Below are positions 1,007 through 35,438 of a DNA stretch of 49,777 nt, piece after piece. This DNA is from a virus: positions 1 to 49,777 of IMG/VR virus record IMGVR_UViG_3300037468_000276. One strand, 5' to 3'. Numbering within the stretch: position 1 is the stretch's first letter; every line of letters starts with the position of its first letter. Both the position numbers and the translations under genes were made by a program. Under the pieces are notes generated by a model. That model was not told where the DNA came from, did not search any database, and saw only the letters and a list, made by a program, of their open reading frames with translations.

Positions 1007-3463
1007 TCAGGAGTAGCGAACAATGATGGTGAAAATGTGGCCGGAAGATCCGGTGCCGACTGACACCAGGTCAACTCCAATCGTGTCCCCAGCCGCGAGG
1101 GTCAGGGTGCCGGTCAGGATGGCGCTGGCATCGGTCAGGATGGCGCTGGACGCCAGGCTGGCGTTAGCGCTCAGCAGGTTTGTTTTGGTGCCACTACGGC
1201 GGGCGTATAGCATTGCCTGGCTGGCGCTGCTGCCAGCGGCAGTGGGGGCCAATTCCCAGAACGCACCTGTAACCGTGCAGGCACGTTGCACCGTTGTCTC
1301 AACGTAGTTGGTGGCAGCAGTGGCGGTTTCGCCCTTATTGGACACCACCAGCTTGATTACATCACTTGGGACAAAAGTGCCACTCTGGAGGGATAGCCCC
1401 CCGGACAAGGTTGCTCCAGCAGCAACACCACCGTTGTTGTAAATAACTTGGCCTGTGGTACCGGCGACGGGGCCTGTTGCCCCTGTGGTACCAGCGGCAC
1501 CTGTGGCTCCAGATGCGCCTATGGGGCCCGTGGCCCCGGAAACCCCTATGCCGGTAGCACCGGTTGGGCCGGTTGGGCCGGTTGGGCCGGTTGGGCCGGT
1601 TGGGCCGGTTGGGCCGGTCATCCCAGTTATACCCTGTGGACCAGTCGCGCCGGTTGCCCCAGACGTTCCAGCTCCAGTTGCCCCAGTTATACCAATAGGC
1701 CCGGTTGCTCCAGTGACTCCAATCCCAGTAAGACCAGTAGGACCAGTCGCACCGGAAACCCCTATGCCGGTAGCACCGATTAGGCCCGACACCCCAGTTA
1801 TACCCTGGGGGCCTGTTGCCCCCGTTGTTCCAACAACACCTGTTCCACCGATGGGGCCTGTTGCCCCCGTAGATCCCTGGGCACCGTTAACTAATGCTAG
1901 GAATAACGAATGGTTATTACTGAAGTTGGTTGTCCCTGACCCGGAGGAATTTAGTAGAGATACGGGATATTGCCAGTAACTATTTGAAGTTCCGGGATTT
2001 ATGTTGGAGGGTATGCCATTAATCACCCAAGTTTGATAGTTTAAGCTATTATCCCTATCTTGTATAGTAATTTTTTCAGTTTGGGTTAATTGCGATAAGA
2101 AAATATCGATATCTATGTTGTCGTCTGTTAAATGACTAATGTTTAATGCGGTTGAGTTGATTTGTGTGGCATTGTTCCAGATTAAGAGCCCCTGGCCAGG
2201 ATTTCCCGTAGTGACTGTAGTTTTGGCGCGGTATAGGAATAAACTAGAGGAGTACCCTTGGGGGCCAGTCGCCCCGGTAGCCCCTACGGCGCCATTCGCA
2301 CCAGTTGCACCAGACGTTCCAACTCCAGTCGCACCAGTTATACCAATGGGCCCGGTTGCTCCAGTGATTCCAATGGGCCCAGTTGCTCCAACAGCTCCGG
2401 TTGCCCCTGTTGCACCGGTAGCCCCGGAAACTCCAATTCCAGCAGGTCCAGTAGCCCCCGTTGTGCCGACAACGCCGGTCGCACCGGTAGCCCCAGACGC
2501 TCCAAAACCTGACACCCCAGTAGCCCCTATCGCCCCAGTGGCCCCGGTAGCTCCAGACGTTCCAACTCCAGTCGCGCCGGTTATACCTATGGGACCGGTT
2601 GCTCCAGTCGCACCTGTTGCTCCGGTAGCTCCAGACGCTCCAAAACCTGACGCCCCGGTTGCGCCTATCTCACCAGTTATACCAATGGGCCCAGTCGCAC
2701 CGGTTGCCCCTGATGCTCCAAAACCCGATGCCCCGGTAGCTCCATCCGCCCCAGTAGCCCCGGTAGCCCCGGTAGCTCCATCCGCCCCAAAACCTGACGC
2801 CCCTGTTGCGCCGGCTAGTCCGGTAGCCCCGGTAACACCAATTGGGCCCGAAGCCCCGGTTGCCCCTGCTGCCCCAGTGGGTCCAGTGTCCCCACGGAAG
2901 CTAGACACCCATTGGCCACCCGAAAGGTCAACATACCATACTGAAAGATACGAAGACAAAGTGTCAAACCACAAGTCGCCTTCATTTGGGTTTTGAGGTG
3001 CTGACGCAGAAACCGTTACAGGTGAACTTGTCTGTGGTGTTTGACCGGATACTAATACCCAGTTGGAGCCGCTCAGAGACTCAACCCAAACGTATAAGCT
3101 ATTATTTGTGGTGCGATACCAGAGGGTGCCGTTTACGGGATTCGATGGGGCCGACGCAGATACAAACACACAAGGGGTGCATCCATTACCAGGGGACGAA
3201 GTGACTTCTTTCCACTCTCCGGGGCCACCTGGTTCTAGAACCCAAATATATAAAATTTCGCTTACAGTATTAAACCAGAATGACCCCTGGAGAATCGGGG
3301 GTGCAGGCTGAGAAGTGGAGACGTATATTGGGACCGTAGTCGGTTCGGGTTCAGACAGGTTGATCCACTGTCTTCCGTTCCAACGGTAATCAGAGCCTTG
3401 CCATGAGAAAGTCTCCCATAGTGAAGGGTTTGGCGGGAAATTTTGGGGGAAATTCTCAACCAT
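1007..3463 (-). CDS. Collagen-like tail fibre protein, 818 aa
   Basis: The N-terminal 190 residues contain three copies of a beta unit with the pattern APxxPxxGxLWYxTxxxxLYVW, at about residues 50-80, 100-130 and 150-180. Two long collagen-type Gly-X-Y tracts follow, about residues 190-420 and 545-690, dominated by GATGATG and [10 protein letters not shown] units. A globular insert of roughly 120 residues ([18 protein letters not shown] onward) separates them. The C-terminal 130 residues form a beta-rich head ([12 protein letters not shown] onward). Phage collagen tracts normally form trimeric fibre shafts, so a side or tail fibre is the likely role. The DNA repeats behind the tracts are near-identical and prone to slippage and length variation. 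Confidence 0.85.
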
Positions 3464-3464
3464 C

Positions 3465-3695
3465 TTAGGCTTCGGGGGATTGTGTCCGAGGGTTCAAGGT
3501 ACCACCACTCAGTTGGACCTTTTGTATTCGAACACCAAGGTCATAATAAACGTCGAAGATATCAACCATTTTGTAAGCTCGGACAACATCAACAGTGCCA
3601 TCTTTTCGAATAACCGTGTGACAATCCGAAGTTAATTGCCCAGGGATAATATCATAGAGCTTAACATCTTCAGCAACGACTTTCACCTTTGACAT
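3465..3695 (-). CDS. Hypothetical small protein, 76 aa
   Basis: A 76-residue soluble protein ([20 protein letters not shown] start) lying one base upstream of the collagen-like fibre gene and probably co-transcribed with it. Beta strands are suggested by the [19 protein letters not shown] region. The family is not recognised. It is preceded by a GGGTAAA element 28 nt upstream of the ATG, the same spacing as in front of the 1500-aa tailspike gene, so it is probably the first gene of a late fibre operon. A chaperone or connector role is possible but not shown. Confidence 0.6.
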
Positions 3696-3723
3696 TTGAC
3701 CTTGGGTTCAACCTTTGGATACT

Positions 3724-3730
3724 TTTACCC
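3724..3730 (-). promoter_or_regulatory. GGGTAAA late-promoter-like element
   Basis: Context TAGGGTAAAAGTATCC, with 28 nt between the heptamer and ATG 3695. One member of the recurrent element set described in the findings. Confidence 0.55.
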
Positions 3731-3745
3731 TACTCTTTACACAAC

Positions 3746-3847
3746 TCACAGAAGTATCAGAGCCAGCAATGGCACAACCATTATTAAAAACGCGATTAAA
3801 AAGCCCCCCACCCCATTGGCAAGGGGCCATAGACTGTCAGGTTCCAT
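3746..3847 (-). CDS. Small single-span membrane protein, 33 aa (putative)
   Basis: A 33-residue frame fills the otherwise empty gap between two fibre genes. After MEPDSLWPLANGVGG comes one hydrophobic helix of about 20 residues (FLIAFLIMVVPLLALILL) ending at the stop. Small one-helix proteins in phages may be holin or lysis helpers, and in cyanophages may be photosystem accessory subunits; I cannot choose between them. No strong ribosome binding site is visible. A GGGTAAA element sits at 3898-3904, 50 nt upstream, which supports transcription across the gap. It may equally be a chance frame. Confidence 0.4.
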   Translation of the reverse strand: MEPDSLWPLANGVGGFLIAFLIMVVPLLALILL

Positions 3848-3897
3848 GTTTGTTTGTTTGCGGGGTCACTTTGATTTGGGGTCTTTGCTGATGGAGT

Positions 3898-3904
3898 TTT
3901 ACCC
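3898..3904 (-). promoter_or_regulatory. GGGTAAA element, distant from start
   Basis: Context GGGGGTAAAACTCC, 50 nt upstream of the 33-aa frame. The spacing is longer than for other copies, so it is the weakest member of the set. Confidence 0.35.
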
Positions 3905-3991
3905 CCGTTTTCCTCTGGGGATTCAATCTGTAACTAATTCCTTTCCCCCACAATATCATACATTACTGAGTAGAGATGGTGACGTGTTGAT

Positions 3992-6900
3992 TTATTGCCC
4001 CTCATTGTACGGCGTAAACCCGAATTTCCCGTCGTTTTCGTAAAAGAACATTGCCCCAAATTCTACGTCATAGGTCTGTGACTTGTCGTCAAAGTAGAAC
4101 TTTAATAAGGCGTTGGAAGTGTACGGATCAACGAGAGTCAGGTCTAAGTCTGGGGCTTCAATGGCGAATGTATATTTCCTCCAGAATGGGGGCACGTTGA
4201 ACTTAGTGTGAAAGCCCCCATCAACCCTAAAGTTGTTGCCGCTTGTTCCGGCATAGAACTGTGTGAACAGAGATACTGAGTTTTTTCTGGCAGACCTTGC
4301 CCAAAGGCATAAGAGCAACTTTTTTCCTCTGAGCCTATCCAGCTCTTCTGGGTAGCCTGGTCTTGCCACCCATGCCCTAAACTCACAGGTTTGAAATGTG
4401 TAAGCCGTAACCCCCGTCTCAGCTGCCTTTTGGAATCGATAAATATAGTAGGAAGGGTTTATCTGGCCCGCACTGTAAGAGCCTAGACCTGCCCTCCGAT
4501 CTGTAGCGATATCGTTCTTTGATCTTCTGGTTATATACATTGGTTTTTGTATAGATGAACTGGGGCCTAACTTAATGGAATTAGATCGGTCGGCAAAGAA
4601 AAATTCCGTTTCCGCAGCAGCGGGGGAATACACAAGGGTGTCCGGCGGTAGGGAACCAAGGTTTACGATACTGAATGCGCGAGTCTGTGGCTTCAGTGTT
4701 GTTAGCAATCCATACCTGGAAACAGGTTTAGTTATTCTAATCTGCTGCAAGTATCCCTGGAAGAAGTCGGTTGCACCCGTAAACCCCCCGCGACCCATGA
4801 TTGGCCTATTAAACCCGGATATAATGAACCTTCCACTAAACGAAATGGTTAGGCTTGGCTCGATGAGATCGTCAATATACACTCTTGCCACACTCCTAGT
4901 TATGGTCATAATGATCTTAGTGAAGGCGTTAATTGGGATCGTCCGGGCACTGGTGGCGTCTATAGTTTGCCCGCCTGTGCTGCGATTCCTGGCTAGCGCC
5001 AGCTTTCCATTCGCGTCAAGGATAAGTGCAAACGGCGCAGATTCAGACGTGGCCCCAAAGTCGATCAGGGTCTGACTTACATTATTCCTAAGCGGATGAA
5101 CCAAAAGCTCTAAAGTTAGATCATCCGTACCAAAGTAAAACGGAGCAGCGATGTTGTTGTTATCGGCTACACCCAGGGTCAGCAGCGAGCTTGTTCCATT
5201 AAAAGAAAAGCTGCCCGTGCCGAACTTAAAGACAGAAGTGTTAATCGTGACGTTTGTATTGTTTACAGTTAAGCCCCTTGGACTTCTATCGACAAATTCA
5301 TTTCCCTGCAGCAAAAGTACATTGCTAGGGAAGTAAGTATCTATATTGTCCTCGGTGCCTTCAGGTGTGAAATTAGCCTTAGAAGGGTTTTTCAGTAAGT
5401 TTACAACGGGTTGTTCATTCTGCGAGAAAGTTTCAAATTGATTTGTTAGGTGGACCGTATTTCCACTTAAAAGAGCATCGTTGTATTCAAACTCAAATTC
5501 GCTTTCAATCGAAACAATAGACTCTCTTGTGCAGCCATCTAGCCCGTTACCGGATATCTTGAACCCCTTGCAACGTTCCAGGACGATGGAAGCGTAGGGC
5601 CGAATGTAAAGCCTTCTGCCATTTGATTCGTATCTCCTAAGGTAAGTTGAACTTGACCCCCCGTTATCGCATCCTCGCACCATGTTATTGGCGCCGATAA
5701 CCCAATCCTTGCAGTCGATAGCCTTAATATGAGTAGAAATGTCTACGGGGCTATCGGGCATATAGTATCTACCCCGTGGCGGGACACGCCGACCGCCTCG
5801 GAACAAGAAGCAGCCGCTCATCGTCCAATAGTCGCAGCGATCAGCGCTTATTGCAGCGTACCCGCATGTGTCCCAATAGACAGAGTTCCATACATTGTCC
5901 GGAGAGAACAATGCGGTTACCCCATGCTCATGGATGTATTCAATTCTTCCATTAGTGTAGGTATTAGCGGCCGTTCCGCCCCTCATTTGCAGGCCAATTC
6001 TTGTGTTATAGATGTAGAAACTCTGTAACCGTGAGTCGAACATATTGTCAGAAGAAATTCCTACATCACACGCATTAATAAAGAAGTTTTCAAAAATGTG
6101 GACATTGCTTGGCCCGTCAATTTTGACGCCTGCTGCGCCCCTAAAGTTTCTTACTGTGAAATTGCTCATCTTGACGCTCCATTCACACGCGACCCCATTG
6201 GCATACCTGCCGCCAATAGGAGTGCCGGAAATGAGGCCTGCAGCGGAGATTGCTAGGCCAGAAGGCAAGGCCTTTGCGCTAAAGGTGCAACCTGATACGG
6301 TTGCTTCAACCTGATAAGAATAGGGCTGGTCTTTAACGGCAACAGGAAGATTCCAAATCAACGATGTTTTCAGCTGTGGTCTTGCTGCCCAGGTATTTCC
6401 TAAAAAGCTGATCAGCCCACTTACCGACTTTCCAGTTGAATCAGTGCCGATAAGGAAGAATGAGAAGTTTCCAGATGTTGTCGGTGTTCCTGTTACAAGC
6501 GCTCTGATACCATCAGTCGAAAGAGTTAGCCCCGGAGCGGGTGATGTTGTGGTGGGATACCCGGCTTGATTGTTCCCGGTAGAACGAGCGGGGTCAATCA
6601 GCCATGTGAACGGGCCAACTCCACCGACAGGGTAAATGGTCCCCTGGTAAGCCACCCCTACAGCTGCATCCGAAAGGCTGCCATACAAAGAAGGGTATGC
6701 GGTATTTTCAACTGTAAGATTTATCAAAATTTCATCAATGAGGGTATTAGCCTCAAAGTTGGCCGTACTGGTGGCACTTGTTATTGCTACTTTTAGCGTG
6801 TACTGTCCGAACGAGTTGACGGTGGGAGTGCCGGTGACCTCTCCGGTAGTTCGGTTCATTACCAGGCCTTCAGGTCCATTAACTATCCACCAATAATGGG

Positions 6901-8494
6901 AAATGCCATCGTTGTTGAGGACATTGAATGTATATTTATAGGCTTGGTTAATGGTGGCAGGGGGAATACCTACCAAAGGCAGTTCGATATATTTCCCAGT
7001 CACCTCTAGAATAAGATCTCGCTGCGCTGTGCTACCGCTTGCATCAGCTACTTGGATCGTTACAAATTGCTTGCCTATTACGGCGGTTGAGGCATTACAT
7101 GTCACCCACCCGGAGCTAGAGACTGCAAACCCCGTAGGAATGGTGCCGGAAATGACATCCCACTGGTAAGGGTTGGCGGGCGTGATTTGTGTATAGGTGG
7201 AAGTCCCCGGACCGACTCCAGTAACATTGCCGCCCATTGCTTTTAGCTGAAAGCCTGCATACCATGCGTCTCCATATTGGTGGGACGGTATAACGAGAGT
7301 CTCCAGCTCTAGGGGCTTGTTTTGCTTAGGGTCGCTGGGGTCAATGACGTACAGCTCCCCATTAAATGCGTAAGACCCTCCAACCCCTAGAGGGGATGTT
7401 GCGATTTTGACAATTGGGTACCATGACCCGAAGGCCATCTCATACCCATCTACCACGATTCCATCTAGCTTGGAGGCGTCCCCTCGCAGGGCGACAGCGC
7501 AGTTATAGTCGTTTGGTCGATATAAAACACAATCTGGATCCACGTAGATAACAGTAGGGACAGCTACGTTGTAGTCCCCCGCGAAACTGGAATCCTGGAC
7601 AGGGTACACTAGAGTATTCTTATTCCCTTGGATTGTCATTCTTGCGCCTACTTCAAGGTATCTTTTGATTCTGCAGTTTCCATTTACCTGAACGACGCTA
7701 GTTTTGCCGACAAACCATTTACCCACTGTCTCTACGCTGTTCATGTCGTAAGCAACATCCAAAGCTTGCTGAATTGAGGGATAATCGTCAGCAATTCTGT
7801 TACCAACACAGCCGAAAAAATCAGCGGAAATAATGTCATCCCATATTCTTCTCCATACTCCATTAGTGCCTGGGGCAGCCTCACCGACACCATTGAGGAA
7901 ATCCTCAAGATTTGCCCTGGTCCCATTGTACGGAACCGTGGGACTTATGAAAGTTCCGCCATCGTGAAGTGCTTTAGGGGTGTCTGCTTCCCACTGAAAC
8001 CATCCGCTTCCTCGTGTGGTTTCGTATGGGGACGTTAAGGTCAATACTGCTTCCTGATAGGAGGCGTAGAACCTTTTAACAAACACCATCCCCGAATTTG
8101 GGGCGGTTTGAAGGTCTGTTATTGACCCGAGCGAAACTGACCCAGCTGCACCCGTTGCTCCGGTTGCCCCGAAACCAGTCGCACCCTGGGCACCAGTCGC
8201 ACCCACTGGCCCTGTTGCTCCAGACGTTCCTATACCAGTCGCACCGGTTATACCAATGGGTCCGGTTGCGCCGGTTGCCCCGAAACCAGTCGCCCCAGTT
8301 GCACCCTGAGCACCTGTCGCCCCAGTGGTTCCAACACCCGTTGCTCCTGTTGCGCCGGTTATACCACCACCGGAAGGCACAATATCCCATGTCGAAGCTG
8401 CATCATTCCACTCGTATTGGTTGACGCCAGGGACGGGGATCTCCGGAAACAATTGTCCATTGATTGGGTTATCTGGGAAGACAATCACCGTCAT
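3992..8494 (-). CDS. Tailspike or long tail fibre with beta-helix, 1500 aa
   Basis: The N-terminus (about residues 1-40, [18 protein letters not shown]) is a phage fibre head type with a [13 protein letters not shown] strand. A short collagen tract follows at about residues 45-120 ([15 protein letters not shown]). The middle resembles a pectate-lyase-like beta-helix entry ([15 protein letters not shown]). Three putative-Ig-like (He_PIG-type) units at about residues 430-690 carry GxVTGTPT signatures. A second beta-helix region follows (about 780-980). A LamG-like domain lies near residues 1080-1240 ([16 protein letters not shown]), then a C-terminal jelly-roll-like domain. Such proteins bind or cut host surface glycans; no catalytic residue can be assigned here. 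A GGGTAAA element lies 28 nt upstream. Confidence 0.8.
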
Positions 8495-9314: not shown

Positions 9315-13294
<3,980 letters not shown>

Positions 13295-22535: not shown

Positions 22536-24992
22536 TCAAGCCTCGCAACTTTGGCATTCGTTGTACGGGTTGTTTGAATCTTCATAGGCGTTTGCCGTTG
22601 CGTTGGTGTTTAATTGTTTGCAGGCTACGTAATCAGTATAGCCACCTATGTGCTTCTTGTAAAGCCATAATTGAGGGACAGTTGTCCAGTCGGAGTTCCA
22701 AAAACCCTTTTCCTCAGCTTCAGCTTTCGTGATTTCCTCATAGCGGATTCCATCAGCAGCCAGTTCTTCTTTAAGCTTCCCACACCAGGGACAATTTTCG
22801 CGAGTTACAATTAAAGCGGGGACAACCTCTTTATTTGTCAATAAACTGCTGCCCTTTAGGTAATAGAGAGACTTCAGTTTCATCTTCCAAGCAGCGAGAT
22901 GCAGACGAGTGATGTATGCAGCATCTGACTTAGGGTCTGGGAATAAATTCAGTGATTGGCCTTGACAGACGTAGGGTTGTCTATCTGATGCTTGTTTAAT
23001 CAGCTCAAACTGATCAACTTCTCGAGCGGTCTTAAAGACTTCTTTTTCCGATTCGGTTAAGCAATCGAGACCTTGAACACTGCCCTTAGCCTCCAGAATT
23101 TGATCCCATACTTCCGGGCCAATGCTCCTATCGCAGAAGATTTTCTCAAGATACTGATTTTTCCTTACGTAAGTTCCTTTGCCCTGTTTAGCAACGTAGT
23201 AGTTGCGGTCTCTCGGTTCAATCCCTTCCGTTCCAGCCCCGCAAATTACACTGTTTGTTTTAGTTGGGGCAATTGCAATTAGGTGCGTATGACGCATCCC
23301 TGTACCTTTGCACCATTCCGGTTCTCCGAACCTTTTGGCCAGCTCTTGGGAAGCTTTGACTGCTTCTTCTTTCATCCAGCGAGAGGTTTCAATGTTCAGT
23401 GCCCTAGCTTCCTGAGTTCTAACAGGTAATCCGTGAAGTTGGTATAAGGAGTGAAGCCCCATCACACCTAAGCCAAGAGCACGACTTTTCTCAGCGAATC
23501 GAACAGCTCTTCCCATGCCAACTTTATCTTTCGCTTTGCGAATGAACTCGCTAACGACGGCTTCCAAGAAGTGAATTCCGATTTGGGGAACAGTACGGCC
23601 AGAGACAGGGGACTTCCAGTTCTTGTACTCGTCGTAGCGGCTCAAGTTTAAGCTACTAAGAACACAAACGAACGAGTGATTTTCGTCTGTGTGTAGGAAG
23701 ATCTCTGAACAGTTATGGACAAGAACCCCCGAGTTTATGTCCCCAGTTTTTGTAATAATGAAGAAGTTGTGGTTGTCTTCGACGCGCAGGTCGTAAACAT
23801 CCTCTACCCCTAGGCTCCGAACACTAACGACGCGAAGGCCAGACTGCTCATTCGTCACGGTGTTGATCGTTCGATGCCCAAATTCATTCACGAAGGAGGA
23901 AAAGGGCTCAAGAGTTTCTCCTACTGAGAACTCAGCTTCCACCCATGAACAGTCCCTTCGAGCTAAGAGGTGGTCAGGGGTGCACTTAAAAGTGCTTCCG
24001 TCCTCAAGCTCTACCTCAGTGACTTCTCGAGTTCCTGTCTTGAACGCGACAGCATTTTTGATCTCGGTGACCCACTGATTCTTTAACTCTGTGCTCCGGT
24101 ACATGCGCTGACGAGCCGAATACACTGGGAAAGAAGTGTTAACCAGGTCTTTTATTGGGACGGAGTTCCTACCATCGGCAACGGCCACAAGAGTCTCTGC
24201 CGTGAAACACAAGTTACTAGTCTTGACTGAAAGACCTCTCTCAGTGTAACAACTAGGGTTTTGATTGTTAACATTATCGATGAAGATTAGGTAGGGGCTG
24301 CCTGAAATCATCCTTGTCCTCAAAACTTCAGCGAACAACTCATGTTTCAAGGTGTCACCAGCAATCATTGACTCTACCCACTCGTCTGTGATCGTCAAAG
24401 CGATATTTGAGTCTAGCCAGGCCCTAGGGTCTCCTTTTGTGTGATCCTTTGCACGAAGCAATTCTGGAACGTCCGGGTGATCAATAGGCAAGTAAAATGC
24501 GAACGACCCTCTCCTGACTCCTCCCTGAGAAACAACTCTGGCGCAAAGGTCGTATTGTTGCATCCAAGGTACAACACCGGTTGACTTACCTCCTCCAGAA
24601 ATAGGGGCACCCGCCGGTCTTACGTCTCCGAAATAGTTGCCAACGCCCCCTCCATTTTTACTCAGCTGAGCAACTTCTTTTAGGTGAGAGTAAAGAGAGG
24701 AAACGCTGTCTGAAGCGTGAACGGAAAAACACGAAATAGGTTGACCACGATTGGTACCGAAATTGGAAGCAACTGGGCTCGCCGCACCGATCCATCCTTG
24801 CCAGAGACAATGGAGTAAGTCGTCGCTTAGAGTTAGGTCGTCGTTGATTTTGCCAGCTGTAGAAGCGAGCCGATTCATCATATCTCTTGGTGTTTCACCG
24901 GGCAGGAGATAACCAGAAGAGAGAGTATGCAGAGCCTCTGCGTTCATCCATGAGGGATGAGTTTCGTTGTCAGGAATACTAAACCAGCTCAT
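22536..24992 (-). CDS. nrdA: Class Ia ribonucleotide reductase alpha subunit with mini-intein and glutaredoxin fusion
   Basis: 818 residues as translated, 652 after removal of a 166-aa intein (residues 262-427). The alpha barrel keeps the redox Cys in QPISCFS (88), the radical-site NLCSE split by the intein, the second redox Cys in FVCVLSSLNLS, and the tyrosine pair SLYYL. It lacks the N-terminal ATP-cone. From about residue 723 a glutaredoxin domain is fused: CPWC redox motif, TVPQLW and HIGGYTD. The normal redox tail with NECQSCEA follows. The enzyme makes deoxynucleotides for phage DNA. Its ATG overlaps the nrdB stop by ATGA. The fused glutaredoxin may reduce the active site in cis. Confidence 0.95.
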   Translation of the reverse strand: MSWFSIPDNETHPSWMNAEALHTLSSGYLLPGETPRDMMNRLASTAGKINDDLTLSDDLLHCLWQGWIGAASPVASNFGTNRGQPISCFSVHASDSVSSLYSHLKEVAQLSKNGGGVGNYFGDVRPAGAPISGGGKSTGVVPWMQQYDLCARVVSQGGVRRGSFAFYLPIDHPDVPELLRAKDHTKGDPRAWLDSNIALTITDEWVESMIAGDTLKHELFAEVLRTRMISGSPYLIFIDNVNNQNPSCYTERGLSVKTSNLCFTAETLVAVADGRNSVPIKDLVNTSFPVYSARQRMYRSTELKNQWVTEIKNAVAFKTGTREVTEVELEDGSTFKCTPDHLLARRDCSWVEAEFSVGETLEPFSSFVNEFGHRTINTVTNEQSGLRVVSVRSLGVEDVYDLRVEDNHNFFIITKTGDINSGVLVHNCSEIFLHTDENHSFVCVLSSLNLSRYDEYKNWKSPVSGRTVPQIGIHFLEAVVSEFIRKAKDKVGMGRAVRFAEKSRALGLGVMGLHSLYQLHGLPVRTQEARALNIETSRWMKEEAVKASQELAKRFGEPEWCKGTGMRHTHLIAIAPTKTNSVICGAGTEGIEPRDRNYYVAKQGKGTYVRKNQYLEKIFCDRSIGPEVWDQILEAKGSVQGLDCLTESEKEVFKTAREVDQFELIKQASDRQPYVCQGQSLNLFPDPKSDAAYITRLHLAAWKMKLKSLYYLKGSSLLTNKEVVPALIVTRENCPWCGKLKEELAADGIRYEEITKAEAEEKGFWNSDWTTVPQLWLYKKHIGGYTDYVACKQLNTNATANAYEDSNNPYNECQSCEA
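23712..24209 (-). mobile_element. Mini-intein in NrdA (166 aa, no endonuclease)
   Basis: Begins with Cys (CFTAETLVAVADG, block A), has block B GSTFKCTPDHLLA at about 72-84, block F VYDLRVEDNHNFF at about 138-150, and ends SGVLVHN before Cys (block G). The penultimate His and terminal Asn are intact, so splicing should work. There is no LAGLIDADG or HNH domain in the linker (about 95-125), so it is a mini-intein unable to home by itself. The +1 extein residue is the NrdA active-site cysteine, equivalent to E. coli Cys439. Confidence 0.92.
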
Positions 24993-25966
24993 GTAAGTAC
25001 GAGGTCAAGGGTTTTTAGGTTGACTCCAAGGAAGTCTTGAGTTGGTTTTGCAACATATCCGCTACCATCCTTGGCTTGGGCGAAAAAGTCTGTGCTTGTG
25101 GAACCAGCTGCAATAGGGTCGAACCACTGCTTGATTACGTTCGCAGCTTCAAGGTCTACTTGGAAGAGTGGTACAGAAATCCCCAGTTTAGTTAGCCTGT
25201 CGTTCGCCCGCCAGCGAAGATATTGCTTAGTGTTGTACAGGGTTATGGTCTCAAGTGCACGACCCTCGAAGATTTGGTTAAGAAATGCGTCCTCGTTGCG
25301 GAGAACAGCTTTAAACCCTTGAAAAATCATCTCGGCCTCGTTTTGGGTTAGAGGATCCTCTTTCACTAACTCTCGGAAGAGTTGTATTCCTGTGTCGCTA
25401 TGCTGCTGCTCATCCTGAATTGACCACGAGATAATTTGTGACAGTCCACGATATTTGCCAGTAAGATTAAGAGAAAGTAAGACAGCAAAAGAACTGAACA
25501 AAGAGACTCCCTCACCCGCACCCGAAAACACAGCCAAAGATTGCTTAACTGAGCGATCTTCAAGGAAATACCCGATCTTTTGTTGGGCAACGGGATCTCC
25601 AAGGAATGCTTCAAATTCGTTAAGTCCTAGAGTGTCAGATAACAAGTTATATGCTTCACTATGGACTACCTCCGATAAGGAGAACATTCTTGCTACGGCA
25701 GCTATTTCATGCTTAGGGAACCAAACAGGAACTTTCGCCCAGTAGTCGGACACGTGAGTTTCCAGGATCGTAAACCCCCTTAATATTCCTGCAACAATTT
25801 CACGCTCACTCTCGGAAGCATCTTGCCAGTCTCGAATGTCACTCTCGAAAGACACTTCTTGCGGGCGCCAAACCGAAGAAAGAGCTTTTTGATATTGTTC
25901 GAAGAAGAAGGGATACTCGAAGCCTTGTTCAGTTTTGTAGGCCGCCCTATAGTTCCTGATACTCAT
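24989..25966 (-). CDS. nrdB: Class Ia ribonucleotide reductase beta subunit
   Basis: 325 residues of ferritin-like fold. Iron ligands and radical site are visible: Glu in ILETHVSDYW, the ExxHxxxY cluster in SEVVHSEAYNLL, where Tyr is the radical site, and the second pair in QDEQQHSDTG. The C-terminal tail (NLKTLDLVLT) should dock on NrdA. The stop overlaps the nrdA start, as expected for an equimolar pair. The upstream neighbour is a homing endonuclease whose stop overlaps this ATG. Confidence 0.95.
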   Translation of the reverse strand: MSIRNYRAAYKTEQGFEYPFFFEQYQKALSSVWRPQEVSFESDIRDWQDASESEREIVAGILRGFTILETHVSDYWAKVPVWFPKHEIAAVARMFSLSEVVHSEAYNLLSDTLGLNEFEAFLGDPVAQQKIGYFLEDRSVKQSLAVFSGAGEGVSLFSSFAVLLSLNLTGKYRGLSQIISWSIQDEQQHSDTGIQLFRELVKEDPLTQNEAEMIFQGFKAVLRNEDAFLNQIFEGRALETITLYNTKQYLRWRANDRLTKLGISVPLFQVDLEAANVIKQWFDPIAAGSTSTDFFAQAKDGSGYVAKPTQDFLGVNLKTLDLVLT

Positions 25967-26598
25967 TGAAGTCTCTCTCTATTTTTAGTGTTAATACCCC
26001 GTGCTTTTTGATAGCTGCTGAGACCACAAGGGGTGGATATATATCCTGTGACCGTACACATCCACTTTTGTGCGTGCTGAACTTTAGAGCCTCTTTTTCC
26101 TCCGGTGGCTTTATCCTCCAGGGACTGAGCTTTTGACCCCGCTTTACACCACTCGAGGAGGTTTTCAGTGTACCTTGGGTTAAACAAACCCGTCTTTTCA
26201 GCGTAATGGCGATGACCAACTAAAGTTCCGTTCTGGTGAGCGTAGACTTCAGCTACCCTTCGAGCCCCGTTTCTGATATTCTCTTGTTTTTCCGGAGGTA
26301 GGAGCGAGAAAGTGTCTCCTCCTTCTCCACCCTTTGTGAAATTGAATAGTAAACCGTTTTCCTTGACGCTCTTCCACGATATAATAAGATGTTTTTCTAT
26401 GTTTTCACATGATGTTCTTAACCCTGAAAACACTATTTCCTGGAGAAAATCTCCCCGAAGTTCACATTCTTTTCGGTGGCCGGTGGCCCACTTGTTTCTA
26501 CGTTTAGACCTGAGTCTGCTTTCCCCCCCTATTCCAACATAGAAAGGTACTTTCTTATCAAACCATACGTAAACGTTGCATTGTTGCGAATTTGTCAT
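25963..26598 (-). CDS. Free-standing GIY-YIG homing endonuclease
   Basis: 211 residues. The N-terminal GIY-YIG core reads CNVYVWFDKKVPFYVGIGG, followed by a basic helix (SRLRSKRRNKWATGH) and the glutamate helix SCENIEKHLIISW. A C-terminal DNA-binding part carries NUMOD-like segments (PEKQENIRNGARRV and KATGGKRGSK). It overlaps the 212-aa gene upstream by about 40 nt and nrdB by 4 nt, so it has inserted with almost no spacer. It probably targets the nrd locus of competing phages, though its site is unknown. Confidence 0.82.
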   Translation of the reverse strand: MTNSQQCNVYVWFDKKVPFYVGIGGESRLRSKRRNKWATGHRKECELRGDFLQEIVFSGLRTSCENIEKHLIISWKSVKENGLLFNFTKGGEGGDTFSLLPPEKQENIRNGARRVAEVYAHQNGTLVGHRHYAEKTGLFNPRYTENLLEWCKAGSKAQSLEDKATGGKRGSKVQHAQKWMCTVTGYISTPCGLSSYQKARGINTKNRERLQ

Positions 26599-27897: not shown

Positions 27898-28059
27898 CTA
27901 TTTTAGCTCGGCATCGTGGCCGTAAACTTCGTGTTGCTTCTTCTCAGACTTTAGGCGCTTGCGCTCGTTCAACCACAGCTGCATGTAAGCGAGTTCACCC
28001 TGAGAGAAAAGCTCAGGGTTCTTGAGTGCTTCTTTCGCAAGCTTCTTTCTCTTTGTCAT
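27898..28059 (-). CDS. Hypothetical small protein, 53 aa
   Basis: Starts at ATG 28059, overlapping the speD stop by ATGA; an earlier in-frame start would run deep into speD. It is basic and helical (MTKRKKLAKEALKNPELFSQ and NERKRLKSEKKQHEVYGHD). No family is recognised. Translational coupling to speD suggests one operon with hli. Confidence 0.6.
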   Translation of the reverse strand: MTKRKKLAKEALKNPELFSQGELAYMQLWLNERKRLKSEKKQHEVYGHDAELK

Positions 28060-28394
28060 CGTTCTATCTCCTGTATAGTGTAAGAAAGGCACCCCAGGTA
28101 CGAGCAGAAAGTTTGTGCAATTTCTGACGAAGGGCGACCACCGCAGGTGAACACGTCAACCCTGGCCTCACCTTTCTCGGGCCATGTGTGAATTGAAACA
28201 TGACTTTCGGCTAGCAAGATAATACCTGTCAAGCCTTGGGGGTCAAACTGGTGAAGAATTGGGTCGCTAAGAGCGACCAACCCATGCTCAAGAACCGTGA
28301 GTTCGAACGCCTTCCGAAGTCGGTCGATGCAGTTCAACTTATCAAAATCAGAATTGAAAACGCGAACTAGCGCGTGAGTGCCAAGAATTTCCAA
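28056..28394 (-). CDS. speD: S-adenosylmethionine decarboxylase
   Basis: 112 residues, TTG start at 28394. The proenzyme processing and catalytic motif AESHVSIHTWPE is intact: cleavage before the Ser gives the pyruvoyl cofactor. The downstream VDVFTCGGRPS is also conserved. Product: decarboxylated SAM for spermidine synthesis. speD is a known cyanophage auxiliary gene, thought to support polyamine supply for DNA packaging or photosynthesis. Confidence 0.93.
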   Translation of the reverse strand: MEILGTHALVRVFNSDFDKLNCIDRLRKAFELTVLEHGLVALSDPILHQFDPQGLTGIILLAESHVSIHTWPEKGEARVDVFTCGGRPSSEIAQTFCSYLGCLSYTIQEIER

Positions 28395-31473: not shown

Positions 31474-31853
31474 CAGTTGAGTGGTAAACGTAGCGAAGGT
31501 ACGAAAGAATTCTCGCTAACTTTGCGAACTCCGATAATGTACTTCGTTGCAAAGTATTGACCAGGCTCAGGAATAAGATAACCGAACTTGACAATTTGCC
31601 ACAAAGAAACTAAGTGGAAGGCATAACCGAGGTGCTCGGTCCCCTCGACGAAAGTCTTCACCAGAAGACGAGGAGTGTACAGCTCACATAGACAATTCAG
31701 TTCTTGAACTGTTCCAATTAAGTCGTACAAACCGGCAGGGTCGTCGACCAGAGTGAACCCCTCGGATTCAAGTTGTTCTTTGAGTCGCAGTTGCTTTTGG
31801 CATTCGTAAGTAAATGAATCCACGAGAATCTGTTCGGGAGTTTGTGTATTCAT
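31473..31853 (-). CDS. Hypothetical protein, 126 aa
   Basis: A helical N-terminus (CQKQLRLKEQLESEGFTLVD) followed by beta-rich segments (FVEGTEHLGYAFHLVSLWQI). The ATG overlaps the helicase stop region by 4 nt, so it is co-translated with it. No family is recognised; the place behind the helicase suggests a replication accessory role. Confidence 0.55.
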   Translation of the reverse strand: MNTQTPEQILVDSFTYECQKQLRLKEQLESEGFTLVDDPAGLYDLIGTVQELNCLCELYTPRLLVKTFVEGTEHLGYAFHLVSLWQIVKFGYLIPEPGQYFATKYIIGVRKVSENSFVPSLRLPLN

Positions 31854-34800
31854 ACTTTTACCCCTTTGCTCTCGTAGAGTTTCTTACGGGCAGCCTCTCG
31901 GAACTTCTCCGCACGATCTGGTGAATAGTGTTTGTCGAGGAGCCAATCATCAAAGCACGCTGCTTTCGGGTTCAGAAGACGTCCTTTGTCCACCTCATCA
32001 ATGAAATCAACTAGTTTTCTTCCTTCAATCACAAGTTCTTCTTGTGCGTGGCGGCAGTTGTTCCAGTTTTCGATTACGTAGTTTGCTTCCCCGCCGATCT
32101 TAAAACCGTCTCTCATTACTAATTTCTCCATGATTTCTCGGATGAGTGTAAGAGCGGTTTTATCCTTGGTTTCTTTTCGAAGTCCGGTTGTATCGTCAAA
32201 CAGGAACTCTTTCGCAAGAGCGATTGCTTTTTTAACAGATTCCCACCGAAGCTCTCGGAAACCTTGATAGTAATGGGTTGAAGGTCTTCCAGCCTCTTCC
32301 CACTCTTTTTTCATAGTAGAGGTTAAATGCTGACAGGATGGGTCTATACCCACGAAGTACAGAGAGTTCAGATAGTCATAGAGAACATCGGGAGTTAACT
32401 CCGGCATGAAGCTAAGGTCGGATCCCGTTCGAATCGAATGCGCAAATGCCATGGCATTAACTAGAGCTTGTGTTACGTCGGCTTTGAATCGAATTCTCTG
32501 CCTGGTAGTCCAATAGCGTACCTCAACCTGAAGGCGGTTAATACGCGGATCCGCAACATCGTTAATGATCTCCCAGAACCTATCGGTAGCAAGGCGGAGA
32601 CACCAGAGATACAGTGCATCGGCACTGACTCCGAGTTTATTGGCAAGGTAGGGAATGTGTGCTCGCGGGCGAAGGTCTGGTGAACCTTCTGACACTGTTC
32701 CTTGCAGGTTTTCTCTATTTTTGGATACCTCGTATTCTCTGTATGTACTAATGAGCTTGATGCGATCAATACCAAGTGTTCAAAAAAGATCGTTAATCTT
32801 TCTCCGGGACTTACCCAGCTGAATGTTACCATTCAGAGCAGACTATATCTTCACCCCTATTAAGGGGGACACTCGTTTCGGATCACTTGATCCTACTCCC
32901 TTTCGGGATAGTCGTTCGGCGTTTAAACCTTGAGGTTCGTTTAGCACGGGATTGTCCTTTCCTAAGGAGTTCCCCCGTTTAGAGTGTGTTTTTTACTGCC
33001 CGTTGCCGGACAGGGGGACTAGTGTGTCAATCCCCGGATCCAGATCGTAAGCAAACTTGCTATTCCAGTCATTGGCGTTGACCAGAATGACTGTTTTCGG
33101 CCAGATTTGCTCAGGGTTTTGGAACTTTTCTTCCACTTGAAATACCATGTGTTCAGACAACTTCGCTATGGTTATCTCGGGTCTTACCCAGCTGAATGTT
33201 ACCATTCAGAGCAGACTATATCTTACTCCCTTGAAGGAGTCTTCCCGTTTCGAACCGCTTGGCTCTACTCTCTTTCGAGATAGTCGTTAGGCTTTCAAAC
33301 CTTTCGGTTTGTTTAGCACGGTAGATTGCCCGTGAATTACACGGGGTTCCCCCGTTTAGAGAAGTTTACACTTAAGAGTTACATCTTAAGGGGGCTATTA
33401 TGCTAACCCGTTTGTAATCAGGATCTTAGTCTCCTCAGAAGCAAGGAACTTCTTAAGAGATGCCAAAGAAGTGTCATCTTTGTCCTAGTGTTCAGTCGAT
33501 TTCGTTAGTTTCGACTCGAGGTTTCCCTCAGCTACAGGTTTCCCAGTAGAGCAGACTATATCTTCATCCCCGTCTTTACGGGGAGCTTCGCGTTTCCCTT
33601 CACTTGAAGGTACGGAGTAAACTCCTAGTCGTTGAGCCTCTTCTATGATGCCCCAAAGTTTTTTCTTGTCCTCCTCTGTTAAAGGAGTATTAGCTTTTTC
33701 TCAATCTTTGGGCCTCATCTCGCCTCTTTCCTCTGTTTGCGGCATTACCCGCGAGTCTCACATCTGGATTGGCTGTCCCCAACCTTTTGCGAATCATCGT
33801 GTTGGAAATCTTTTCTCTTGTATTTTCATCATGTAGATTACCGCCGTGTGGTGTATCTAGTATAATGTTAACTTGGTGTGAAAACTTGCCAATCTGTTTA
33901 TTGACAAATCGAGTTTCAGACCTAACTTGCCAGCACCTTTGATACATATCTTCTATAAAGAGAGCCATAATGGGCTCTGAGCAGGAGTATAGTATAATTT
34001 TACCGGTAGGCTGAAAAGTAGTGTCTGCGAAACTCCCAAAGTAAGATTCCGTATGATGCTTCTGAAAGCCTACGTATAGCCTATTGCAGAGACAACCTTC
34101 ATAAGAAAGATAGCAAGTAGAAGTTGGCTGCTGATTGCCCATTGTTATATCCTCAAGGATTATTAGTTAGTGATGAGCCAACTACCCGAGGCTCTTAGGG
34201 GTTTCCAGCAAATAGCGAAGTTTTAATTGCGCAAAAGTTTACGCAATGTCACTGAGTGCCGCAGCTTTCAAACCGAATCTATCTTCCGTAGATTTAAACG
34301 TGTGAGTTACAAAACCGCACTTAGAGAAAGCAGCGGTCATTCCATTAAATAAAGTTGACTTACCTAACCTTTTGTTCCTGTCTTGTCGTTAATAAAACAG
34401 CGGGACTAACCCTGCTCATACTTTCGTATGAGAGCAGACTATATCTTCTCTTTTCCATTGGAAAAGGCACCATGTTTCGAGCTACTTAGCTCTACTCTCT
34501 TTCGAGATAGTCGTTGAGCCTTCCTCGCTAAGGAAGGGCGCTGATTGCCTATTGTTTCATCTTCTCAGATTTTCAGTTAATACATAGTACCAACTACTGA
34601 AAGCTTTAAGGTGTTCCAGCTTTGAATGGTGTTTTACGCGAGCCGTTGATAGTCAACCCGCATCTTTACCCACAATCACCCCCGCCATACGAGCGGTGTG
34701 ATCTACAGGTTGATCCTTACCTGGCGGTAAATGATTTGATCTACCAACTCCAATTCTTCCGATGATTAATCGCAACATCTCCCTTTCCGCTTCAGGGAAG

Positions 34801-35438
34801 ATGGAAAAAACGTCGGCCAAGGTAACCATGTTCAGAACTGGATCGAACCAATCTTTATCCGGCACCCATGTTCGGGGGCTAGAGACTGGGACACCGCCCC
34901 ACCTTGCTGCAGGGTCGAAGGAATGCCCGTAATCAAGAGTATCGTGGATGTTTTTGGTCATGTTAACCCTCTTCATCTTCAGCAACCTCTCCGTAAAGGA
35001 GATTAGGTCTGAATCGCCCGCTTTGGGTTTGAATAAGGGTTCCCAGAAAGTTCTCACTTCTTCTGGACACAAGTCCGGGTGGAAGCAAGATTCGACCCTC
35101 TCGAAGTCATCATAGACTGAGATGTCTTGCAACGGGTTAAAGTCTGCAGGATAACGAATACCCCTCACCATCGGTGGCGGTGTGGGCTTCAGGATACGGT
35201 GCTTGCAGTGATCACCAGTCTCGTCAATCTCGATGACGAATCCTTTAGCCTTTAGTAGAGTAATGCCTGCATTGTAAAGCTCCGATACTCTCGTTGGCGC
35301 TTTTTTCTTCTTCTCTTGTTTTTCCTCGCCGTCTTTCTTCGAGCGGAAGGACGTTGCTTTGTTTCTTTCTCGGGCTTCATTCAGGATACCAATTTCCTGT
35401 TTTGTGCTTCCGAGTCCCCCTGAATAGGGATCTGCCAT
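31850..35438 (-). CDS. SF3-type helicase / primase-helicase C-terminal domain, five exons and four group I introns
   Basis: Exons on the minus strand: 35438-34656, 34367-34241, 33483-33406, 33144-33030 and 32771-31850. Joined, they give 2025 nt, 674 codons plus stop. The AAA+ core reads Walker A VGKDAGLGKST (residues 256-266), Walker B LSDIAYKDD (to residue 307), an SF3 motif C VILVNANDW (348-356) with its sensor Asn, and the arginine-finger candidate IIDRIKL (Arg371). About 260 N-terminal residues hold no visible primase motif. The C-terminal 280 residues are helical. It is the likely replicative helicase. Introns interrupt Walker A, Walker B, the strand before motif C and the Arg-finger codon. 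Confidence 0.9.
32772..33029 (-). ncRNA. Group I intron helicase-D (258 nt, no ORF)
   Basis: Splits the Ile368 codon beside the Arg finger. P1: exon GGGGAU pairs with intron GUCCCC, U-G at the junction. P9 hairpin CTGAATG/CATTCAG with a GUAA tetraloop, S element GAAGATATAGTC (complement at 32841-32852). Ends GAACACTTGG. Almost a copy of intron C in its core. Confidence 0.9.
33145..33405 (-). ncRNA. Group I intron helicase-C (261 nt, no ORF)
   Basis: Splits the Leu330 codon. P1: exon GGGU pairs with intron GCCC. Core CTCTAAACGGGGGAAC, P9 CTGAATG/CATTCAG and the S-like AAGATATAGTC (complement near 33214-33224). Ends GAACACATGG. Confidence 0.88.
33484..34240 (-). ncRNA. Group I intron helicase-B (757 nt) with GIY-YIG ORF
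   Basis: Splits the Tyr304 codon in Walker B. P1 is strong: exon UUGCGU pairs with intron GCGCAA. S element GAAGATATAGTC (complement at 33554-33565). Ends GAACACTAGG. Confidence 0.92.
33690..34142 (-). CDS. Intron-encoded GIY-YIG-like homing endonuclease (helicase-B)
   Basis: 150 residues. The nuclease core is CNRLYVGFQKHHTESYFGSF, the YVG...YFGS variant found in phage intron endonucleases, followed by the glutamate helix MALFIEDMYQRCWQ. The C-terminal third is a NUMOD3-like, basic segment (DENTREKISNTMIRKRLG). The ATG overlaps the intron P4-region sequence GGCAATCAGCAGCC, so an internal start is possible. It should cut the intronless helicase gene near Walker B. Confidence 0.75.
   Translation of the reverse strand: MGNQQPTSTCYLSYEGCLCNRLYVGFQKHHTESYFGSFADTTFQPTGKIILYSCSEPIMALFIEDMYQRCWQVRSETRFVNKQIGKFSHQVNIILDTPHGGNLHDENTREKISNTMIRKRLGTANPDVRLAGNAANRGKRRDEAQRLRKS
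34368..34655 (-). ncRNA. Group I intron helicase-A (288 nt, no ORF)
   Basis: Inserted inside Walker A after GKDAG. P1: exon GCGGGU pairs with intron GCUCGC. S element GAAGATATAGTC (complement at 34437-34448), P9 hairpin CTCATAC/GTATGAG with a GAAA tetraloop. Ends AAAAGG. Confidence 0.92.

Follow-up and report, generated by a model that had tools for sequence, protein, structure and literature searches.

The gene for a predicted SF3/D5-type AAA+ helicase of a cyanophage is divided by four group I introns, which lie clustered in the part that encodes the ATPase core. Very probably these introns belong to at least three lineages that homed repeatedly into the gene and afterwards lost most of their endonuclease genes. 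The stretch of DNA analysed, referred to hereafter as the window, comprises 49,777 bases and is a virus record from a metagenome contig. It covers about 50 kb of a larger genome; the virus is a large cyanophage and a relative of Synechococcus phage S-CBWM1.

The joined reading frame and its introns

Five exons on the minus strand (35438-31850) join to a frame of 2025 nt, which is 674 codons plus a stop. The junctions were fixed by two independent criteria, gaps in DNA alignments with intron-free relatives and the splice rules, including P1 pairing. The gene has the following parts.

34656-35438, minus strand: exon 1, codons 1-261, 3' end ...GKDAG; open reading frame, gap-free alignment with intron-free L011-L015
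34368-34655, minus strand: group I intron 1, 288 nt, in Walker A between G261 and L262; RF00028 47.8 bits, P1 of 8 bp
34241-34367, minus strand: exon 2, codons 262-303 plus 1 nt; alignment to intron-free relatives and joined frame
33484-34240, minus strand: group I intron 2, 757 nt, inside Tyr304; RF00028 39.0 + 28.1 bits, P1 of 7 bp
33690-34142, minus strand: open reading frame in intron 2, 150 aa, candidate GIY-YIG-type homing endonuclease; its start overlaps the intron core
33406-33483, minus strand: exon 3, 78 nt; alignment to intron-free relatives and joined frame
33145-33405, minus strand: group I intron 3, 261 nt, inside Leu330; RF00028 62.9 bits, covarying secondary structure
33030-33144, minus strand: exon 4, 115 nt, bears motif C (ILVNANDW); alignment and joined frame
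32772-33029, minus strand: group I intron 4, 258 nt, inside Ile368; RF00028 58.9 bits, P1 of 6 bp
31850-32771, minus strand: exon 5, codons 368-674 and stop; alignment and joined frame

In the intron-free relatives the gene is one uninterrupted open reading frame of 674 aa with exact empty sites. The insertion phases of introns 1 to 4 are 0, 1, 1 and 2. When the gene was read unspliced, in-frame stops appeared within 0-12 codons of every junction (with no further residue in introns 1 and 2, and with 2 and 12 extra residues at introns 3 and 4, respectively), so production of a functional helicase should require that all four introns be spliced out. Retention of intron 1 yields a 261-aa piece that lacks the Walker A lysine. 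Splicing at the four junctions is thus expected in vivo from the sequence. Automatic annotation would show a helicase of this kind as two or three unrelated fragments. The initial annotation had rebuilt the same 2025-nt frame, closing to 674 codons, with coordinates and strand that proved exact, and its proposal that helicase expression depends on splicing is supported by the stops shortly after every junction.

The Rfam model RF00028 matched all four introns of the window, in two pieces split by the open reading frame in the case of intron 2. The 50-bit gathering score was passed by introns 3 and 4 only, introns 1 and 2 being below it. A natural copy of intron 2 that lacks the open reading frame, found at the same site in L055, L056 and L059, scored 83.2 bits. 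The family yielded 21 introns, each preceded by an exon whose last base is T (U in the RNA) and each terminating in G. A family-wide scan placed a 4-8 bp P1, with its U.G pair at the splice site, in 20 of them and misplaced P1 in the remaining one, L059_i3. Compensatory changes were present in 23 of 60 predicted pairs of the introns at sites 3 and 4. The division of the gene by four group I introns, as originally proposed, is therefore upheld by the RF00028 matches, the P1 rules and the relatives with empty sites.

Identity of the joined product

The joined protein matched the PHROG profile phrog_25243, 'DNA primase', over residues 34-628 (E=1e-124) and gave a marginal match to DUF5906. A sequence profile search of the PDB returned no meaningful match, and structural matches came from the fold search alone. 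The intron-free homologue L012 was modelled with AlphaFold (pLDDT 77.5, pTM 0.61), and Foldseek with this model returned the SaPI5 primase-helicase, ASFV PrimPol, poxvirus D5/E5, the NrS-1 CTR and papillomavirus E1 at E values of about 1e-6; these matches cover the core only, with low whole-chain TM scores (0.2-0.5). Structure prediction, a check suggested in the initial annotation and run here on L012, thus gave an SF3/D5 fold. Together with the PHROG profile and the marginal DUF5906 match, the model supports the original identification of the joined product as an SF3/AAA+ helicase, predicted to be of the SF3/D5 type.

The closest homologue in an isolated phage was the 'DNA primase' of S-CBWM1 (YP_009816494; 50.6% identity over exon 1). 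This relationship and the presence of psbA in the window both point to a cyanophage. A search for the helicase in bacterial genomes found nothing, and hence gave no sign of a prophage form. The dN/dS between the window and L006 was 0.038 overall and 0.021 in exons 2-4. The low value in the exons (0.04) indicates that the spliced product is under purifying selection.

Insertion sites in the ATPase core

Walker A, Walker B, the sensor Asn (motif C) and the presumed arginine finger occur in that order in the joined protein. Residues G263, K264, A303, Y304, D306, D307, G329, N352, N354, G367 and R371 were invariant in 22 relatives, and R371 is probably the arginine finger, judged by its position. 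Site 1 lies directly after GKDAG in Walker A (G261/L262), and site 2 lies inside Tyr304, directly before KDD, in which D306-D307 form the acidic pair of Walker B. Both of these placements had been given correctly in the initial annotation; its other two were not sustained. Site 3, assigned to the strand preceding motif C, was found inside Leu330, after the invariant G329 and about 20 codons before motif C (residues 349-356). Around it, the pattern T327-x-G329-x4-E334-x-K336, invariant in the 22 relatives and located between Walker B and motif C, may correspond to SF3 motif B'. Site 4, assigned to the arginine-finger codon itself, was found inside Ile368, after the invariant G367 and three codons before Arg371.

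Conservation at the four sites was greater than at random quadruples of sites drawn from the gene (five window sizes, P 0.00015-0.006). When the comparison was restricted to the ATPase core, P was 0.004-0.07, weak at some window sizes. The sites were also clustered, within 320 nt of 2022 (P 0.014). The insertion of group I introns at conserved sites is established (PMC2814812), and the earlier suggestion that the introns target conserved codons held in the site-conservation test, with P about 1e-3.

Occupancy of the sites in related loci

Across about 80 related IMG/VR loci, occupied sites were always at the same four nucleotides, in combinations of zero to three; all four were filled in the window only. 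Because one of the conserved peptides used in the survey extends across site 4, loci with an intron there were more easily missed, and the counts should not be read as frequencies. The filled sites by locus were as follows, with two intron-free loci at the end.

L006: sites 1 and 4 filled
L007 and L008: site 4 filled
L009 and L010: site 3 filled
L051: site 3 filled
L055-L057 and L059-L060: sites 2, 3 and 4 filled
L058: site 4 filled
L061: site 4 filled
L011 and L012: no site filled

The alignment of L055-L060 had suggested a fifth site, near codon 354, which proved to be an artefact; those loci have sites 2, 3 and 4. In L025 (5001-6992) and in L061 (1680 onward) the coding part of the helicase contains in-frame stops or a frameshift, which may be real or an assembly error.

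Four of the loci provided a direct view of movement. L007, L009, L011 and L012 are about 96-99% identical in DNA, yet they hold intron 4, intron 3, none and none, respectively. Such presence or absence at one exact site among close relatives is a mark of mobile group I introns. Between L007 and L012, 9 of 66 differences fell within 15 nt of site 4 (P=2e-7), a cluster that is a mark of co-conversion. At site 3, the corresponding signal between L009 and L012 was weak (P=0.009). Filled alleles have in common synonymous codons that match the intron guide.

Endonuclease genes and their remnants

Only intron 2 among the helicase introns of the window keeps a candidate endonuclease open reading frame. 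Its product had no direct match in Pfam; over 77 aa it shared 42% identity (E=1e-14) with the product of a free-standing open reading frame with NUMOD3 motifs in L095. That frame (L095 2989-3750, 253 aa) was the nearest relative found and is located between the two ribonucleotide reductase subunit genes. In the window a different open reading frame (25963-26598) lies between the ribonucleotide reductase subunit genes.

The relatives showed other states of the same introns. At site 1 the copy in L006 (1019 nt) carries a 290-aa open reading frame weakly related to a GIY-type protein, and the window copy has no endonuclease gene. At site 2 only the first codons of the open reading frame remain in L055, L056 and L059, the L055 copy being a deletion remnant. 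At site 3 no open reading frame was seen in any intron copy of the family. Site 4 showed several states. Genes with GIY-YIG and NUMOD3 domains were present in L006 (an intron copy of 929 nt) and L058, and L055 and L061 had similar frames. L059 encoded an HNH_3 protein, in L007 the gene was frameshifted, L056 had a remnant with an internal deletion, and the window copy has no open reading frame. The involvement of homing endonucleases, as initially proposed, is supported at sites 1 and 4 by genes in relatives; in the window itself a candidate is kept in intron 2 only.

Intron lineages

In a tree of the 3' cores the helicase introns formed at least three lineages, namely intron 1, intron 2 and introns 3/4. 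Because the cores are only about 110 nt long, support for the tree was modest, and it was low for the deep branches. Intron 1 grouped with introns in the tape-measure and portal genes of unrelated phages, intron 2 stood apart, and the 3/4 lineage was near the T4 td intron; the psbA introns were a separate group. Across phages, the helicase introns grouped by site. Introns 3 and 4 were 77.6% identical over 219 nt, compared with 69-72% over 186-221 nt for the best outside match, and from this similarity they may be one lineage that moved to a second site. The 3' core tree replaced a tree of whole introns, which was misled by endonuclease open reading frames of differing length. A single lineage for all helicase introns, distinct from those of psbA, was also considered and was abandoned once introns from other phages had been added to the tree, where introns 1 and 2 had no special closeness to 3/4.

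Origin and maintenance of the introns

Under repeated homing, four mobile group I introns would each have homed to a fixed site in the conserved motifs of the ATPase core. In the pre-mRNA each intron would fold, and its guide would base-pair with the final 4-8 nt of the preceding exon; excision of the intron would then leave an in-frame joint. The introns would have arrived as endonuclease-bearing homing elements, of the GIY-YIG or HNH types known from the same sites in relatives, and spread between co-infecting phages by the cutting of empty alleles and conversion of the flanks. Thereafter the endonuclease gene would mostly have been lost, leaving one in the window in intron 2 alone. The model presumes that the endonucleases are active on these targets and that the phage needs the helicase for replication.

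A single intron that multiplied within the gene, through reverse splicing or ectopic transposition, would also produce four copies. Introns 3 and 4 are indeed closer to each other than to the best outside match, and they group together by core, but intron 1 falls with introns of unrelated phages, intron 2 is apart and the grouping is by site; multiplication can therefore hold at most for the pair 3/4, and as an origin of the four introns it is unlikely. Nor is the gene likely to be a decaying pseudogene with dead introns in a phage that replicates with another helicase. A second helicase could lie elsewhere in the larger genome of which the window is a 50-kb fragment, but the five exons stay in frame over 674 codons with dN/dS of 0.02-0.04 and intact catalytic residues, and the ribozymes retain P1 and covarying helices, which makes decay highly improbable. 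That the mosaic is an assembly artefact joining different strains has to be asked of any metagenome contig; the chance is negligible here, since separate contigs, from other samples, carry the same introns at identical nucleotide positions, and the boundaries follow the splice rules.

Two further explanations concern why the introns persist. They might be kept because splicing regulates helicase expression, in timing or in response to host physiology, rather than as selfish elements, and the loss of endonuclease genes from three of the four introns while the structures persist intact speaks for such a role. The near-identical L011 and L012 have no intron at all, however, and occupancy is patchy, as expected of selfish turnover, so we regard regulation as very unlikely. 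A more speculative extension of the homing model, possible though doubtful, is that the fixed sites form a weapon-and-immunity system between co-infecting cyanophages, in which endonucleases cut the empty-site helicase genes of rivals and bare introns are kept as site protection. If so, the four filled sites would confer immunity to four endonucleases.

Irrespective of how the introns are maintained, this essential-looking gene documents the phage homing cycle within a single locus: its four fixed sites each appear in several of the states empty, endonuclease-bearing, with a swapped endonuclease, frameshifted, deletion remnant and bare. The locus is suited to asking whether a bare intron persists because it shields its site against rival endonucleases, and how costly it is for a replication gene to depend on four splicing events.

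Relation to known systems

Mobile-element invasion of this kind is basically known, and the present locus is an unusually complete case. No phage helicase with four group I introns was encountered in a partial search of the literature. The closest parallel is the haloarchaeal MCM replicative helicase, which has four intein sites in its catalytic domain (PMC10643990). It too is a replicative AAA+ helicase with four clustered self-splicing sites, one of them in Walker A, and patchy homing occupancy, but the elements are inteins, spliced from the protein in archaea, whereas those described here are group I introns, spliced from the RNA of a phage SF3 helicase. The authors of that study reported no evidence for co-homing (PMC10643990).

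Phages of the Bastillevirinae likewise carry group I introns in conserved replication and packaging genes, many with homing endonuclease genes, some frameshifted (PMC11878797). There the genes are those for DNA polymerase, terminase, thymidylate synthase and ribonucleotide reductase, with no helicase and a maximum of three introns per gene. In the parts of the account of the crAss-like Zeta group considered here (PMC7886860), intron and intein density is very high, the major capsid gene is in five fragments and introns lie inside conserved motifs; those phages, however, infect gut Bacteroidetes, intron domains are described in only three of the four capsid-gene inserts, and no series of alleles with a site empty or filled is described in these parts. 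The core of the T4 td intron is 73% identical to intron 3 over 146 nt. Chimallivirus gp210 is an intron endonuclease that adjoins catalytic residues and acts in the competition of co-infecting phages, but the td and gp210 introns are one per gene and in other host genes (PMC11620839). The S-CBWM1 homologue is about 50-57% identical and has the same neighbourhood, with dCMP deaminase and a sigma factor nearby. Its gene contains no introns, unlike the psbA of the same phage, which has two annotated group I introns.

Other features of the window

The psbA gene of the window (photosystem II D1; 9318-13294, minus strand) has eight exons and seven group I introns, two of which contain open reading frames, of the GIY-YIG type and others. 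These introns differ in group from those of the helicase, and the two genes together hold 11 group I introns in 50 kb. The large subunit of ribonucleotide reductase (22536-24992, minus strand) contains an intein (Pfam Intein_splicing) and a C-terminal glutaredoxin domain. Two very large collagen-like structural proteins of 818 and 1500 aa, with GATGATG... repeats, are encoded at 1007-8494 on the minus strand, and a gene for S-adenosylmethionine decarboxylase (Pfam AdoMet_dc) is located at 28056-28394, also on the minus strand.
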